A stretch of DNA of 5,239 nt from Desulfobacteraceae bacterium (GTDB lineage: Bacteria > Desulfobacterota > Desulfobacteria > Desulfobacterales > Desulfosalsimonadaceae), in contig SLGU01000206.1 in the NCBI GenBank assembly GCA_007136525.1, positions 1 to 5,239 of the forward strand, in the 5' to 3' direction. The position numbers were made by a program, and so were the translations under genes. This document shows positions 1-5,226 of this stretch, piece after piece. The notes below the pieces were generated by a model, which was not told the origin of the DNA, searched no databases, and saw only the letters and a list, made by a program, of their open reading frames with translations. How positions within the stretch are numbered: position 1 is the stretch's first letter; every line of letters begins with the position of its first letter.

Positions 1-49
1 GATTTGTTCTTTGCCCAAAGACGTGTGTCCGCTTGGGGCGTTTCTGTTT
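1..49 (-). other. nqrD downstream spacer, nqrE not reached
   Basis: This is the stretch downstream of the nqrD stop codon on the minus strand. nqrE normally follows nqrD directly, often touching it. Here 49 bases pass without an in-place ATG or GTG, and the one TTG does not open into anything resembling the NqrE N-terminus. nqrE, if present, therefore starts beyond the left edge. The stretch contains a weak inverted repeat, GCCCAAAG at 13-20 and CTTGGGGC at 32-39, with one mismatch and an 11-nt loop. No T-run follows it on the minus strand, so it does not look like a classical terminator. Confidence 0.5.
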
Positions 50-682
50 TTACCGGTCGTCCTCACCCGTTCCGGCGATGTATTTCTGAAGCCATGCCAT
101 AAGCCCTATAATGATGAACGCGGCCGGGGCCAGCAGCATGAAACCCATGTTCTCGTATCCTGCATCATAAAAGGACTGGGGAATGACAAAATACCCAAAA
201 ATGGACCCGGAGCCGAACAGTTCGCGCAGAAAGGCCACGGAAAGCAGCACAGAGCCGTAGCCGGCGCCGTTGCCGAGCCCGTCCATGACGGCCAGGTGCG
301 GCGGGTTGGACATGGCAAACCCTTCCGTGCGCCCCAGGATGATGCAGTTGGTGATGATCAGGCCCACGAAAACCGACAGCAGGCGGCTGATTTCGTAATA
401 ATAGGCCCGTAAAAATTCGTCTGTCAGGATCACCAGGGAGGCGATAACCCCGAGTTCGACGATGATCCGGATGTTGCCGGGGATAATTTTCCGCATCAGG
501 GAAATGATCAGGCTTGCCCCTGTAATGACGAAAATCATGGCAAGGGTCATGACGAAAGCGGTTTTCAGCTGGATGGTAACCGCAAGCGCCGAGCAGATGC
601 CAAGCATCTGCATATTGATGGGGTTGTTGCTCCATGCGGGCTCGGCAAAGGCTTTAAATGTCTTTGTGCGCGTCAGTTTCAT
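50..682 (-). CDS. nqrD: Na+-translocating NADH:quinone oxidoreductase subunit D
   Basis: Encodes a 210-residue integral membrane protein, the usual NqrD length. NqrD and NqrE form the antiparallel membrane pair that holds a [2Fe-2S] centre at the middle of the membrane and takes part in electron transfer coupled to Na+ transport. The two family cysteines are visible: Cys30 in GICSALA and Cys113 in TNCI. About six hydrophobic segments are seen, roughly at 25-40, 43-63, 73-90, 101-117, 140-155 and 178-198. Other hallmarks are NNPI near residue 20, VFVGLIITNCI at 104-114 and GLGNGAGYG. The ATG at 682 follows GGGGAG with a 9-nt gap. It lies 30 bp downstream of nqrC in the same operon. The Rnf homologue RnfE is related, but the close match to NqrD and the operon order favour NqrD. 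Confidence 0.95.
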   Translation of the reverse strand: MKLTRTKTFKAFAEPAWSNNPINMQMLGICSALAVTIQLKTAFVMTLAMIFVITGASLIISLMRKIIPGNIRIIVELGVIASLVILTDEFLRAYYYEISRLLSVFVGLIITNCIILGRTEGFAMSNPPHLAVMDGLGNGAGYGSVLLSVAFLRELFGSGSIFGYFVIPQSFYDAGYENMGFMLLAPAAFIIIGLMAWLQKYIAGTGEDDR

Positions 683-712
683 ACCAGGAAACTCCCCTTC
701 GTCCGTAGCGAT

Positions 713-1426
713 TTATTCGCCGGGCATTTCGACCCGGTTGTCCCGGAACCGTATGGATACGGGCTCATATTTGGAAAGAATCTGTTTGAGTCCCTCGGAC
801 AGGTACTTGCCGGTCAGGGTCGCCCCGCTGATGCCATCCACGTAATGGGGCTTGTCCTCCTCGGGCACCTGTCGCTCCACTTCCCCCCGGGCGACCCGCA
901 CCGATACGAAGGTACCGTGTTTGTCCACAATTTTTTTCCCTACGAAATTTTCCTGAAACCACTGGCGCTCGATTTCACCGCCGAGTCCGGGCGTTTCAGA
1001 ATGGCGGGTGATGGTAAACCCCTTCACGGTGGATCCGTCCTTGTCAATAGCCAGGTAGCCGTTGATCATTCCCCATACGCCCTGGGTGTCGATGGGGACG
1101 ATATATGCATTGACGGCGTCGTTTTCAAGGTAGAGGTATATGGGGAGCACCGGTTCCGCGCCGATTTTGTCTTCTTTTACGATAATGCCGGTTTGCGCAA
1201 CGCCGAAAAGTTCGATTTTTTCGTCGTAGATGGCAATGATTTCCTCGGGAGCGTAGCTTTTGTCCCGCGACACAAGGTTCACCGCCAACAGAACGTTTTT
1301 CTTGCGGTTGAGCTCCATGTTCCGCTGCTGCAGGGGCTGGAGGGCGGTTGCCGCCGTCGTCAGCAGGGTGCCCAGCACGATGCACATGCACACGGCGAAA
1401 ACGATGGATTTTGCCATGTCAGACAT
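713..1426 (-). CDS. nqrC: Na+-translocating NADH:quinone oxidoreductase subunit C
   Basis: Encodes 237 residues: one N-terminal membrane helix (about 5-30) and an extracytoplasmic FMN-binding domain. The sequence DGISGATLT carries the flavinylation motif, with Thr203 in SGAT as the expected phosphoester-linked FMN site; ApbE-type flavin transferases recognise this motif. The NqrC/RnfG hallmark HSETPGLGG is also present. The FMN passes electrons onward within the complex. The open frame extends 13 codons upstream to 1465, but I chose the ATG at 1426. It is preceded by a perfect AAGGAGG with a 7-nt gap, and the resulting N-terminus (MSDMAKSIVF) runs straight into the membrane helix as in other NqrC proteins. 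With this start the gene overlaps the nqrB stop by 8 bp, suggesting translational coupling backed by its own strong ribosome binding site. Confidence 0.95.
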   Translation of the reverse strand: MSDMAKSIVFAVCMCIVLGTLLTTAATALQPLQQRNMELNRKKNVLLAVNLVSRDKSYAPEEIIAIYDEKIELFGVAQTGIIVKEDKIGAEPVLPIYLYLENDAVNAYIVPIDTQGVWGMINGYLAIDKDGSTVKGFTITRHSETPGLGGEIERQWFQENFVGKKIVDKHGTFVSVRVARGEVERQVPEEDKPHYVDGISGATLTGKYLSEGLKQILSKYEPVSIRFRDNRVEMPGE

Positions 1427-2615
1427 TGGGAATCCTCCTTCTGATGCGCAGGCGTGTTTCCGCATATTCCATCAAGGGAGAAAAGATGTTCATAAACAGG
1501 ATGGCAAGCATGACCCCCTCGGGAAATGCCGGGTTCACCACCCGAACCAGGACGGCTACCGCTCCGATTAAAAAACCGTAAATCCATTTGGAAGTATCGG
1601 TTCCGGGGGCGGTGACCGGGTCCGTGGCCATGTAAACGATGCCGAAGGCGAAGCCGCCGGTCACCAGGTGATATACGGGGTTGACGGAAAACCATGCCGG
1701 CAGGTCGGGTGATTGAAAATAATTGAAGAGCAGGCCTGTTGCAATCATACCGATGACGCCGCCTGCCATGATGCGGTAGCTGGCGATTCCCGTTGCAAGC
1801 AGGATCAATGCGCCGATGAGGATGCAGAGTGTCGAAGTCTCGCCGATGGAGCCGATGTGGTTGCCGAAAAAAAGGGTTTGAAAAGTGTAGCCGCTGTCGG
1901 CGAAAACAGCTTCGATGCGCGCCTTCGGGTCTGCCAGGGCGGCGACTGCCAGCGGAGTTGCGCCGGTTATGGCGTCAACGGCGTTCTCGGCCGACTCCCT
2001 GACCGCCACCCATACCCGGTCCCCGCTCATCTGCACCGGGTATGCGAAAAAAATGAACGCCCGGGCGGTGAGTGCCGGATTGAACAGGTTGCGGCCGGTT
2101 CCGCCGAATACTTCCTTGCCGATAACCACCCCGAAGGTGATTCCGGCCGCCACCTGCCACAGGGGGATAGTGGGCGGAAGGGTCAGGGGAAAAAGCAGCC
2201 CCGTGACCAGAAACCCTTCGCTGATGGGGTGCCGCCGGATGGCGGCAAAAAGCCCTTCCCAGAAAAGGCCGACCCCGTAAGAAACAATCACGATGGGCAT
2301 CACGATAATAAGCCCTTCGCCAAACACGGATACAAAATCGGTGCTCAATCCCGAGGCGTTTCGCGCGTGGAAGCCCGTGTTGTAGATGCCGAAAAGAAAC
2401 GGCGGCATAAGTGCCGCGAGCACAATGCTCATGTAGCGCTTCAGGTCGAGACTGTCCCGGATGAAAGGGTTTTTCTTCACAGGGATGGCCGGGTAAAGGA
2501 AAAAGGTTTCCGTGGCCTCGAAAAACGGCTTCAGCCGTTCCATTCGCCGCCCTTTTTCAAAATACGGGCGGGACCGGTCAAACAGATTGCGGAGTGGCTT
2601 TTCGATTCGCCCCAT
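1419..2615 (-). CDS. nqrB: Na+-translocating NADH:quinone oxidoreductase subunit B
   Basis: Encodes a 398-residue polytopic membrane protein of about ten helices, close to the usual 400-415. NqrB carries covalent FMN and, in the known complex, riboflavin and the main Na+ pathway. DAITGATPLA carries the flavinylation motif, with Thr220 as the expected FMN attachment site. Other NqrB hallmarks are RDSLDLKR at 53-60, GITFGVVIGKEVFGGTGRN at 158-176, GSIGETSTL, and MATDPVTAPGT followed by RVVNPAFPEGVMLAIL. The amphipathic N-terminal segment before the first helix (residues 1-50) is present and aligns with the Vibrio protein as I recall it. This supports the ATG at 2615 over the internal Met25, and favours NqrB over the shorter RnfD. 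It begins 3 bp after the nqrA stop with no strong Shine-Dalgarno site, so it probably depends on translational coupling. Confidence 0.96.
   Translation of the reverse strand: MGRIEKPLRNLFDRSRPYFEKGRRMERLKPFFEATETFFLYPAIPVKKNPFIRDSLDLKRYMSIVLAALMPPFLFGIYNTGFHARNASGLSTDFVSVFGEGLIIVMPIVIVSYGVGLFWEGLFAAIRRHPISEGFLVTGLLFPLTLPPTIPLWQVAAGITFGVVIGKEVFGGTGRNLFNPALTARAFIFFAYPVQMSGDRVWVAVRESAENAVDAITGATPLAVAALADPKARIEAVFADSGYTFQTLFFGNHIGSIGETSTLCILIGALILLATGIASYRIMAGGVIGMIATGLLFNYFQSPDLPAWFSVNPVYHLVTGGFAFGIVYMATDPVTAPGTDTSKWIYGFLIGAVAVLVRVVNPAFPEGVMLAILFMNIFSPLMEYAETRLRIRRRIPNV
1434..1440 (-). promoter_or_regulatory. Shine-Dalgarno site of nqrC
   Basis: AAGGAGG on the minus strand lies inside the 3' end of nqrB, 7 nt before the ATG at 1426. 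It is the strongest ribosome binding site in the operon segment. It decides the nqrC start against the longer open frame beginning at 1465. Confidence 0.85.
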
Positions 2616-2618
2616 AGG

Positions 2619-3968
2619 TTAGATCCGATCCTCGTAATATGCACGACGGGTGGTTTTCAGGGTCTCGGCCAGTTCGATCTTGGCCGGGCATACATACGTG
2701 CAAAGGCCGCATTCCACGCAGTCGAGTAGGCCGTGCATGAGCGCTTCCTCGATTTCTTCGGCATAGACGCACTTGTAGGCGAACTGCACCATGATGTCTA
2801 CCGGGCATACCTGCTCGCACTTGCCGCAGTTGATGCAGGCGCGCTCCTCGCCCCGCATGTCTGCTTTGGCTGCAAATTCTTTTTTTTGAAGGGCATACAG
2901 AAACGTTCGCGATGCGGTGGGCTTGCGGGTTCCCGGCCTCAGAAAGCCAAAAAGCTCGGGATCGGCTGCTTCCTCGATCAGGAGCAGCGATGTTTCGTAA
3001 AACCCCATGTATCCGTCCGGTTCAGCGGTTTGCCCCCGGAACAGCCCACCGGTGATCCACCTGCGGCTCCGGGCGGATTCCGGGTCCGGCAGAAGCGATG
3101 CAAGGGGGGCGCCCAGGCGGGTTTTCACGCACCGGCTGACGGCGGCGCTGCCGTTGTCTGAGGCGGATACGGCCATGATCCGGGATATGGGGTAGCGGCC
3201 GGATGCCATGCCTTCGGCCAGCAGGAGCACATCCTGGCCGTTCATGAACCACGCGCGGTTTTCAGATGCGGATTTTTTTGTGTGATAGAGCACTACTCCC
3301 GGATCTTCAGCCGGGTAAGGGCCGGCTGTCCGGTGGGTGATTATTGCCCGGATGTCGCGGCTTTCGACCGGTACCTGTTCACTTTCGCATACATAGACCG
3401 GTACGCCCAATCGCTCGAGTATCCGGATGCCTGAAACGAAAAGGGGTTCATTGCCATTAAGGTATACGGGCGACGGTACCTGGAAAGGATCGGCCGGGTC
3501 CAGGCATACCCACAGGGAAGCAGGCTTTTCATCCGGTGCGGCTATGCTCCGGTACGGCAGGCTGCGGACAAGCGGCCAAAGGCCGCGAACCGCGATAGCA
3601 TCGATGAACTGTTCGCGGTCCATCCCCCTTGCCGATTTTTCATCCACGGGCTCAAAGTCCTCGTGTGCTTCCGTCTCCCCGGTTTCAATGACAATGCGCG
3701 TGATGGCGCGCCGATGGCCGTATTCGATGTCAATAACGGTGCCGCCGCCGGGTGACAGGAATCGCAGCCAGGGTTTTTTTTTGTCTTCGAAAAGGGGGGA
3801 GCCGATTTTGACGGCATCTCCCTTTTTTACCAGCAGACGCGGCTTGATCAGGGGGATATGGTCCGGCAATGCGGCCACGGCCTGAACCGCGGGCCCGTCT
3901 TCGATCGAAAGGGCGGGCCTTCCGGCAACATGAATGCCAAGGCTTTTTTTAATCGAGACGTTTTTCAT
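2619..3968 (-). CDS. nqrA: Na+-translocating NADH:quinone oxidoreductase subunit A, with two [4Fe-4S]-type cysteine motifs
   Basis: Encodes 449 residues, the usual NqrA length (about 446 in Vibrio). NqrA is the peripheral cytoplasmic subunit linked to quinone binding. Visible in order: N-terminal SIKKSLGIHVAG; a barrel-sandwich region at about 40-95 with KKGDAVKIGSPLFEDKKKP; a Rossmann-like region similar to the 51-kDa complex I/RnfC module at about 125-260 (RGLWPLVRSLPY); an SLBB-like part near 265-315; and a C-terminal module. The last carries CINCGKCEQVCP (Cys378, 381, 384, 388) and CVECGLCTYVCP (Cys417, 420, 423, 427), two complete 4Fe-4S motifs typical of RnfC and unusual for NqrA. The ATG at 3968 matches the family N-terminus; GGAAGGA lies 13 nt upstream, a wide spacing. 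An in-frame TTG at 4001 would add 11 residues but lacks a ribosome site. Its place just ahead of nqrB supports NqrA rather than RnfC. Confidence 0.93.
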   Translation of the reverse strand: MKNVSIKKSLGIHVAGRPALSIEDGPAVQAVAALPDHIPLIKPRLLVKKGDAVKIGSPLFEDKKKPWLRFLSPGGGTVIDIEYGHRRAITRIVIETGETEAHEDFEPVDEKSARGMDREQFIDAIAVRGLWPLVRSLPYRSIAAPDEKPASLWVCLDPADPFQVPSPVYLNGNEPLFVSGIRILERLGVPVYVCESEQVPVESRDIRAIITHRTAGPYPAEDPGVVLYHTKKSASENRAWFMNGQDVLLLAEGMASGRYPISRIMAVSASDNGSAAVSRCVKTRLGAPLASLLPDPESARSRRWITGGLFRGQTAEPDGYMGFYETSLLLIEEAADPELFGFLRPGTRKPTASRTFLYALQKKEFAAKADMRGEERACINCGKCEQVCPVDIMVQFAYKCVYAEEIEEALMHGLLDCVECGLCTYVCPAKIELAETLKTTRRAYYEDRI

Positions 3969-3995
3969 CGGCGTATTCGTGTCCTTCCACTTGAA

Positions 3996-4005
3996 CCTCA
4001 ATTAT
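3996..4005. repeat. 10-bp direct repeat, copy proximal to nqrA (candidate target-site duplication)
   Basis: CCTCAATTAT (plus strand) is identical to 4156-4165. The two copies directly bracket the palindromic element between them. The first bases on either side differ, so the identity is exactly 10 bp. It lies 27 bp upstream of the nqrA ATG. Confidence 0.75.
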
Positions 4006-4155
4006 GACGACTTCGCAAAAAGGCCAATATCTGCGTTACGCGCAATTTCCGAAGAATTTCATCACGTCAAAGGCGTGACTCAATTCTTCAAAAATTGCGC
4101 AAGCCTGGATCTTGGCCTTTTTTCAAAGTCGTCTGATCTCGACTTTTTACGGGTT
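4006..4155. mobile_element. 150-bp palindromic MITE-like element in the nqr leader
   Basis: A long interrupted palindrome without coding capacity. Outer arms 4006-4027 and 4112-4133 match at 20 of 22 positions (GACGACTT...AAAAGGCCAA). Inner arms 4040-4058 and 4082-4100 match at 17 of 19 (GCGCAATTT..GAAGAATT). The apical stem TCACG/CGTGA (4062-4066 with 4074-4078) has a 7-nt loop. A poorly paired stretch separates outer and inner arms. A 22-bp tail (4134-4155) lies outside the right arm and contains CTTTTTACG, which in reverse complement (CGTAAAAAG) resembles CGCAAAAAG in the left arm. The element is bracketed by a perfect 10-bp direct repeat. Size, foldback structure and flanking duplication fit a non-autonomous mobile element. 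Which transposase would move it cannot be told from this window. Confidence 0.7.
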
Positions 4156-4245: not shown

Positions 4246-5226
4246 ATGCGACTGTATGCCGTCGCCGATATTCATGCCCGGCCCGCCCGGATCGCACGCG
4301 TGCGCGCGGGGGTGGAGAAATTCGAACCGGATATCCTGGTGGTCGCGGGAGATATCGGCAGCTACATTAATCCCAACGGCGTTTATTCTCATTTGAACGA
4401 TCTGGGCATCCCGGTGTTGACGGTTCGGGGAAACTCCGACAGGCGATGGCATGACCAATGCCTTTACCGATATGAAAATATTACCTCCCTTCATATCCGG
4501 CCTTTGAGAATCCAGGGTATTTCTTTTGTGGGTATTTCAGGCGCGGTACCGGTGCCTTTCAGAACCCGGGTCGCCTTTCGCGAAAAGCGCCTCTTTGAGG
4601 CGGCGGCCAGCGTCATTTCTGACGAAACCATCCTGGTTGTCCATCCGCCGCCTTTCGGAACCCTTGACCGGGTCCTCGGCCGGCTGAGCGCCGGTTCAAA
4701 AGGCGTGGCGCGCCTGGTTGCCGCCCGCAGGCCCCGGATGGTTCTGTGCGGCCATATCCATGAGCATACCGGGGTTGAGAAGACGGGCGATACACTGGTT
4801 GTCAACTGTTCCATTGCCCACGCTTCAAATGGGGCCGTCATCGATTTTGAAGGTCCTGCCGCGGTTCTTCAAGAGCGGATGACAGGGGGTGGGGCTGAAC
4901 TCCTTGAGGCAGACGAACTGGATGTGTCCTTCCGCTTCCTCACCGGCGTGGAGGATACGGACGCCAAAGGAGTACTTAGCCTCAGCGACCGCGTGACTGG
5001 GGAGTTCATCCTCGAGGTGAATGCCGAAGCCGATCGCATCGCCCCGTTTGTCAGAGTAGCACGGCGCTACGGGAAACTGCCAGATGCTGAGTCGCGTTAT
5101 CGCGTCGTCGTTCGGATCGATGGCGAGGATATCGTCGAATACGAAAAACGCACCTTTCTCCTGTATAATGCCGACGGCAATCTGTTGCGAGACCAGAGCT
5201 TGATCCCGAGCGGCGTGGAACTATAA
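4246..5226 (+). CDS. Calcineurin-like metallophosphoesterase with an unrecognised C-terminal extension
   Basis: Encodes 326 residues, predicted cytoplasmic: no signal peptide or membrane segment is seen. Residues 1-202 form a calcineurin-like phosphoesterase domain with the full dinuclear-metal ligand set: Asp8 and His10 (ADIH), Asp36 (AGDI), Asn63 in GNSDR, His133 (VVHPPP), and His170 and His172 (CGHIHEH). It is therefore probably an active phosphohydrolase. The compact domain resembles the YfcE/Icc-like and small metallophosphoesterase groups, whose substrates include phosphodiesters and nucleotides; the substrate cannot be assigned. Residues from about 203 to 326 are soluble, charged and probably beta-rich (runs such as EFILEVNA and YRVVVRIDG). 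I do not recognise them as a family. The gene is divergent from the nqr operon and shares a promoter region with it; no functional link is shown. No terminator is visible in the 13 bases left after the stop. Confidence 0.88.
   Translation: MRLYAVADIHARPARIARVRAGVEKFEPDILVVAGDIGSYINPNGVYSHLNDLGIPVLTVRGNSDRRWHDQCLYRYENITSLHIRPLRIQGISFVGISGAVPVPFRTRVAFREKRLFEAAASVISDETILVVHPPPFGTLDRVLGRLSAGSKGVARLVAARRPRMVLCGHIHEHTGVEKTGDTLVVNCSIAHASNGAVIDFEGPAAVLQERMTGGGAELLEADELDVSFRFLTGVEDTDAKGVLSLSDRVTGEFILEVNAEADRIAPFVRVARRYGKLPDAESRYRVVVRIDGEDIVEYEKRTFLLYNADGNLLRDQSLIPSGVEL

Follow-up and report, generated by a model that had tools for sequence, protein, structure and literature searches.

Two full [4Fe-4S] motifs in the NqrA of a Desulfobacteraceae bacterium: most likely a surviving intermediate on the way from RnfC to ordinary NqrA

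Can NqrA, a subunit that is described as carrying no cofactor motifs in the Na+-translocating NADH (reduced nicotinamide adenine dinucleotide):quinone oxidoreductase (NQR), still possess the two iron-sulfur clusters of RnfC, its counterpart in the RNF complex? The question is raised by a DNA stretch of 5,239 nucleotides, contig SLGU01000206.1 of the Desulfobacteraceae assembly GCA_007136525.1 (hereafter the window, i.e., the whole stretch analysed), in which nqrA, nqrB, nqrC and nqrD follow one another on the minus strand; the window holds nqrA-D only and ends short of nqrE and nqrF. An earlier note on this DNA had pointed to two complete RnfC-type cysteine motifs near the C-terminus of NqrA, and codon positions, Fer4 models and conservation place both of them exactly there. 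The features concerned, including the stretch that corresponds to the flavin mononucleotide (FMN) loop of RnfC, are as follows.

2619..3968, minus strand: nqrA, 449 residues from the ATG at 3968 (an alternative TTG at 4001 adds 11 residues), with NQRA_N, NQRA_2nd, a weak SLBB match and a C-terminal 2[4Fe-4S] ferredoxin-type domain
2802..2837, minus strand: first [4Fe-4S] motif, CINCGKCEQVCP, Cys378/381/384/388 in ATG numbering (389/392/395/399 from the TTG)
2685..2720, minus strand: second [4Fe-4S] motif, CVECGLCTYVCP, Cys417/420/423/427 in ATG numbering
3534..3587, minus strand: stretch aligned with the Gly-rich FMN-binding loop of RnfC, three residues shorter and without GxGGA

Both motifs are the full C-x2-C-x2-C-x3-C-P, their starts lie 39 residues apart, and the cysteine codons span 2837-2835 (C378) to 2690-2688 (C427). 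The Pfam Fer4 dicluster models score above their cut-offs on the window protein (Fer4_7, E 1.6e-9); the eight cysteines do not vary when the window protein is aligned with 44 relatives (42 invariant columns altogether), and they account for 8 of the 13 columns that are invariant across 131 sequences including 11 RnfC. In spacing and predicted fold they match a 2[4Fe-4S] ferredoxin-type domain, with modelled helices at 394-398, 405-413, 417-422 and 433-437 (TTG numbering); most of this region had a predicted local distance difference test (pLDDT) score below 50 in a first structure model built on 45 sequences, which was not so in the second, built on 131. Judging from sequence and model, two [4Fe-4S] clusters are likely to assemble in NqrA of this cysteine type. 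The NqrA of Vibrio cholerae (PDB 8a1y/7xk3), about 28% identical to the window protein, lacks six of the eight cysteines. The gapless alignment with Vibrio proposed earlier holds over the first motif and breaks at the second, where Vibrio has a two-residue insertion ahead of its remaining CTFVCP that the window protein does not share; the Vibrio letters given in the earlier note were mistaken, the solved sequence having MVPIGNYEKVMP instead. Since two full [4Fe-4S] motifs stand where described NqrA has none, we call the window protein a variant.

Is the subunit truly an NqrA, or rather the RnfC of an Rnf complex under a mistaken name? Fold, gene order and sequence all identify it as NqrA. Pfam NQRA_N and NQRA_2nd score above their cut-offs and NQRA_SLBB below, the match to PDB NqrA reaches E 8.7e-55, and the predicted structure has the fold of NqrA, not that of RnfC. 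NF003761 (PRK05352.1-4, NqrA) is the top-scoring model for the window protein and for all six cysteine-type relatives scanned, one of which, Desulfonema magnum P0018, exceeds its cut-off (460.7, cut-off 450); the same model also accepts Cys-less proteins (L139 scores 496.9). The genuine nqrABCD order with an Nqr-type NqrB, as the earlier note had read it, is borne out by NqrB, NqrC and NqrD, which follow in order and pass the NCBIfam nqr cut-offs. What can be said for RnfC is a TIGR01945 rnfC match confined to the last 72 residues; set against full-length agreement with NqrA in fold and sequence, nqr-type B, C and D subunits, nqrF in the relatives and the absent FMN loop, it leaves a misnamed RnfC with a practically negligible probability. 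RnfC (PDB 7zc6, 8ahx, 9eri) is like the window protein in its eight cysteines, its 2[4Fe-4S] domain and the motif spacing of 39 in the rows read, and unlike it in the GxGGA FMN loop, in binding nicotinamide adenine dinucleotide (NAD) and in having RnfB instead of NqrF as partner (PMC9588780; here and below, such numbers refer to excerpts of the papers). The GxGGA loop is present in 12/13 RnfC rows and in 0/64 others, the 22 cysteine-type rows being without it throughout; because this loop has already been lost, cysteine-type NqrA is past the function of RnfC. A place deep within RnfC together with an rnf flank had been named as what would undo the NqrA reading, and we found instead that RnfC stands apart (100/99), that the flank is of nqr type and that the tree of the NqrA body, with the cysteine type outside RnfC, refutes the RnfC identity.

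How widespread is the cysteine type? Both motifs, always 39 residues apart, occur in 120/120 homologs of the window NqrA (the best 120 of 601) and, again 39 apart, in 91/91 further homologs found with a deep relative as query (best 120 of 373), that is, in 211/211 of the near homologs listed. A survey of the phylum with the nqrA model (395 genomes, E 1e-10; 34 matched, 30 loci read) yielded 7 cysteine-type NqrA, 7 Cys-less NqrA, 1 NqrA fragment, 2 loci of a third type and 13 RnfC-like loci (L033-L045, labelled RnfC by weak nqrA score, motifs and FMN loop, with no rnfC model used). At the level of the order, 208/389 genomes match a cysteine-type profile at E 1e-25, and 108 of these were read, comprising the 30 top-scoring, 20 of the lowest-scoring listed and 58 from genomes with unlisted matches, the other hundred or so being mid-scoring. 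Among the 108, both motifs were found in 98, three proteins are full-length and Cys-less (L213, L214, L216), and seven are cut short or frame-broken with an unreadable second motif (L205, L207, L209, L211, L217, L218, L221; the first motif is visible in L205 and L207). The cysteine type is thus present in 98/101 order loci with a readable C-terminus, and none of the 108 loci holds an intact full-length protein with a partial set of cysteines. Among Bacteroidota NqrA the motif was found in 0/50, in any frame (50 above the cut-off; 247 genomes, the phylum of a Balneolaceae metagenome-assembled genome, MAG). The order and phylum of the surveyed genome groups, and hence their names, are what we take them to be from their GTDB placement. 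Across the loci read, the trait is either present in full or absent and is distributed by lineage, with 98/101 in the order against 0/50 in Bacteroidota and no partial sets; the cysteine type is the usual NqrA of the sampled order and no rarity. The earlier note would have been weakened by eight cysteines common in NqrA at large, and they proved usual in the sampled order and absent from the 50 Bacteroidota proteins.

Three other explanations of the motifs were rejected in the course of these surveys: a chance motif, by the invariance of the cysteines in the alignments and by both motifs in 211/211 listed homologs; a one-off relic, by the same homologs and the order survey; and cysteine decay in progress, by the lack of any intact protein with a partial set in the 108 loci. 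Separately, two genomes of the order, G646 and G826 (L209, L214), have two NqrA-like genes each; in G646 the N-terminal piece L209 scores as cysteine type and the second gene as Cys-less NqrA. In another Desulfobacterota genome (G363; L022 / L058:8822-11155), NqrA and apparently NqrB share one 778-codon frame without Fe-S motifs.

Where does the cysteine type belong between RnfC and ordinary NqrA? Two trees were built, one from concatenated subunits (NqrB, NqrD and NqrE; RnfD, RnfE and RnfA; 45 rows, 729 columns) and one from the NqrA body with the Fe-S columns removed (77 rows, 372 columns). Long-branched L123 was excluded from the concatenate and the NqrA alignment (it was present in an earlier tree), and L127, L058 (A and B in one frame), L003, L005, L006, L007 and L062 were left out. 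In the concatenate, Rnf branches off before the third type, and what remains splits into a cysteine clade (100/99) and, as its sister, a Cys-less clade (98/92). The NqrA body gives RnfC, then RnfC-like proteins (Omnitrophota-type plus third type, 97/84), then cysteine (100/98) and Cys-less (98/91) clades, with the RnfC-like P0193 placed beside NqrA (91/71), away from its own group. Therefore, the check proposed earlier, whether cysteine-bearing NqrAs form a clade, has a positive answer in both trees. Joining the third type to the cysteine rows is rejected (p 3.3e-8), as is joining it to the Cys-less rows (p 8.1e-5). Discrete characters are nested in the same manner: a three-residue deletion in the FMN loop is shared by 22/22 cysteine-type and 21/21 Cys-less NqrA and by no other row, and the two-residue insertion together with the loss of the first six cysteines marks 21/21 Cys-less rows exclusively, 18/21 of which still have the last two cysteines. 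These patterns suggest an order of losses in which the FMN loop went first, the shared deletion came next and the cysteines went last. The cysteine clade appears as the sister of the sampled Cys-less NqrA, with a root that is not decisive, and the cysteine type most likely preserves a stage intermediate between those of RnfC and ordinary NqrA; the earlier reading of an ancestral or intermediate form is thus supported by the trees together with the loop and indel characters.

Since the outgroups carry the cysteines under either root, regain is a less simple account than retention followed by one loss or two. We nevertheless considered that an RnfC gene in the same cell could have recombined with nqrA and so restored the Fe-S domain. 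In a 76-column tree of the Fe-S region, a group of the cysteine type with RnfC is not rejected (approximately unbiased, AU, test p 0.265 without and 0.199 with Cys-less rows), and an rnfB match above the cut-off exists in 8/9 cysteine-type genomes checked (none in G189), both of which a regain would accommodate. On the other side, the Fe-S tree with Cys-less rows joins the domain to Cys-less NqrA (96/94; cysteine clade 93/84), and the private insertion of the Cys-less form and its last two cysteines kept in 18/21 rows argue for loss rather than regain, which we consider highly improbable.

Additional light on the order of events comes from the third type, which consists of two nqr-like operons, L046:2140-7618 (G082) and L047:935-5153 (G046), whose first gene encodes an RnfC-like subunit with eight cysteines and without GxGGA, scoring 221 and 236 bits with TIGR01945, just under the cut-off of 246. 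L046 continues with nqrBCDEF, its NqrF above the cut-off, and L047 stops within E. For the B subunits of both, nqrB models give higher scores (about 324-331) than rnfD does (282-283), although the only cut-off they reach is that of rnfD; these subunits have K54, G140 and E157. The third type and the RnfC-like proteins P0140-P0240 are like cysteine-type NqrA in the eight cysteines and the lost GxGGA loop, and unlike it in their RnfC-type Pfam domains (PF13375, PF01512), in lacking the three-residue deletion and in their deeper position in the trees; relatives of the third type (best 120 of 257) are named from Omnitrophota, Planctomycetota, Endomicrobiia and others. NqrF stands beside the third type in L046 alone, P0140-P0240 being known from proteins, not operons. 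As L046, a single complete locus, combines an RnfC-like subunit with NqrF, it suggests that the exchange of RnfB for NqrF and the decay of the FMN loop both predate the loss of the clusters. As a separate observation, L046 is flanked on both sides by CxxCH-rich open reading frames (ORFs), by eye multihaem cytochromes.

Is the rest of the complex that of an ordinary NQR? The remaining genes of the window are given below.

1419..2615, minus strand: nqrB, 398 residues
713..1465, minus strand: nqrC, FMN-binding domain and SGAT; the inner MSDMAKS is the probable start, matching the ORF of L001
50..682, minus strand: nqrD, keeping both conserved cysteines that bind the NqrD/E [2Fe-2S] cluster

The nqrE and nqrF that the left flank was to be read for lie beyond the window end, and in the relatives nqrABCDEF is complete in 6/7 cysteine-type loci of the phylum survey, the seventh stopping at a contig end. 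NqrF keeps its [2Fe-2S] and RAYS flavin motifs in 7/7 examined and the strict NADH pattern GGGAGMAPL in 4/7. The window NqrB keeps Lys54, Gly140, Glu144 and Glu157 (Vibrio numbering) of the quinone/inhibitor pocket, of which K54, E144 and E157 are named in PMC9325719, as well as GGTGRN at the riboflavin site and, in the flavinylation motif (TGAT), its threonine. Lys54, Gly140 and Glu157 are present in 9/9 cysteine-type rows and 0/14 Rnf rows, Glu144 in 9/9 and every Rnf row, and the Phe160 position is Leu in 9/9. The [2Fe-2S] cysteines are kept in NqrD (46/46 rows) and NqrE (42/42 rows). Because these NqrF motifs, the NqrB pocket and the NqrD/E cysteines are kept, NADH entry and quinone exit look normal in cysteine-type Nqr.

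What, then, might the clusters do? With moderate confidence we favour a six-subunit Nqr of Desulfobacterales in which NqrA retains the 2[4Fe-4S] domain of RnfC without its FMN site and the clusters serve as a side port. The main route would run as usual from NADH through NqrF, NqrDE, NqrC and the riboflavin of NqrB to menaquinone. The two clusters would assemble within electron-transfer distance of that riboflavin, by analogy with RnfC, and form a side branch there, a one-electron port on the cytoplasmic side for ferredoxin or another soluble carrier; this assumes docking as in RNF, and one-electron exchange is proposed because the branch ends where the FMN site was lost. NqrA clusters would thus offer a second cytoplasmic electron port, and would have been lost later, once or twice, in lineages leading to the well-studied enzyme. 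In RNF, the RnfD riboflavin hands electrons to one RnfC cluster at a distance of 11.7 A, from which they reach the second cluster and then FMN and NAD (PMC9588780), and in NQR the quinone lies 11.6 A from riboflavin (PMC10643135).

The main rival holds that the clusters assemble but are purely structural (or a redox/oxygen sensor), holding a C-terminal domain that clamps NqrA to NqrB, with no electrons passing through them, and that ordinary NqrA later swapped in other side chains. Consistent with it, the two-electron output of RnfC is gone with the FMN loop, an NQR review gives NqrA no direct function in its excerpts (PMC12174285), and the six lost cysteine positions are mostly hydrophobic in Cys-less NqrA (with S, T or N also found at the second), which is what refilling of a core void would produce. 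Yet both motifs, not one, persist in 211/211 listed homologs although the Vibrio fold is stable without them, and the RnfC geometry sets one cluster within transfer distance of riboflavin (PMC9588780); we regard the structural role as the less probable account, though one to be taken seriously. A further proposal puts the clusters on the main route, from riboflavin through NqrA to menaquinone at the quinone-contacting NqrA site known from photoaffinity work. Vibrio NqrA is indeed labelled by quinone (PMC9325719) and sulfate respiration is fed by menaquinol (PMC4014512), but NqrB has retained its pocket residues, and the quinone site as solved, 11.6 A from riboflavin, involves no NqrA cofactors (PMC10643135), so that this route seems unlikely.

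Several points weigh against the side port and the intermediate status that we prefer. Support for cluster binding comes from sequence and model, and the alignment behind the structure model included RnfC and RnfC-like rows. The window NqrA remains under the NCBIfam NqrA cut-offs (NF003761, 372.9 of 450; TIGR01936, 258 of 321). The tree tool flagged long branches meeting between Rnf and the remainder in the concatenate and uneven composition in 12/77 rows of the NqrA-body tree, and a root inside Cys-less NqrA, with the cysteine clade joined to either Cys-less half, is not rejected (AU p 0.277, 0.267). The genome surveys were restricted to two phyla. No partner gene was seen adjoining the operon in seven loci, by eye from ORF starts and without family searches, which also speaks for a structural role. 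Finally, electron flow from riboflavin to low-potential clusters or ferredoxin would be uphill unless driven, which speaks against a simple exit port.

A bolder version of the side port, which we put forward tentatively and consider doubtful, is a branched pump in roughly half of Desulfobacterales species (208/389 match), in which Nqr would take NADH electrons, pump Na+ and deliver from riboflavin either to menaquinone or, through the NqrA clusters, to or from a soluble low-potential carrier; it would belong to a series leading from RNF to NQR, with RnfB exchanged for NqrF at the start and the clusters lost at the end. If true, one complex would link the pools of NADH, ferredoxin and quinone in sulfate reducers, and the steps between RNF and NQR would survive as a living series, including the RnfC-like type beside NqrF in L046.

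How does the cysteine type sit with the printed account? According to the excerpts, NQR arose in Chlorobi/Bacteroidetes (PMC4014512, PMC12174285); Reyes-Prieto 2014 has RnfC losing its NAD, FMN and both cluster sites after RnfB loss to become NqrA, and explains the early-branching Desulfobacteraceae nqr as a transfer from Chlorobi (PMC4014512). A 2025 review states that NqrA has no redox cofactor (PMC12174285), and sulfate-reducer genome papers name Nqr and, in their excerpts, leave the NqrA cysteines unremarked (PMC2702500, PMC4046663, PMC5109826, PMC11887813). Our literature searches, covering such excerpts, found no published report of a cysteine-bearing NqrA, and as far as they extend this is a previously undescribed variant; existing database names of cysteine-type proteins include '4Fe-4S dicluster domain-containing protein' as well as NqrA. 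The Rnf2 of Desulfobacteraceae with its large RnfB is likewise a variant redox pump found in these bacteria (PMC5109826, PMC11887813); it differs in being a separate Rnf complex with RnfB, not an nqr operon. A widespread NqrA with both cluster motifs beside a normal NqrF would mean real intermediates from RNF to NQR with ordered losses, and calls into question the direction of the Chlorobi-to-Desulfobacteraceae transfer, provided that the 2014 Desulfobacteraceae branch is, as we infer, the cysteine type. NqrA, which has no assigned function today, gains a possible redox role that is testable in cultured sulfate reducers; by name, bearers of the cysteine type among the listed homologs include Desulfonema magnum, Desulfonema ishimotonii and Desulfatiferula olefinivorans.

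With regard to the surroundings of the window genes, the closest genome loci come from Desulfobacterales/Desulfobacteraceae MAGs (best-segment identity 93, 73 and 66%), and homolog P0001, 93% identical to the window NqrA, has the same length of 449 residues. L001 is collinear with window bases 7-4005 at 88.7% DNA identity; consequently, the gene order is no artefact of the window contig. For the roughly 150 bases between nqrA and a metallophosphoesterase gene (4006-4155), blastn finds no counterpart in L001 or L002. Within that gene the similarity to L001 ends at 4862, and the plus-strand frame past this point (4862-5226) continues into a DUF5793 domain, most of which it covers (profile 28-157) and which is missing from the L001 protein, the join at 4862 being either a gene fusion or a chimeric assembly join.
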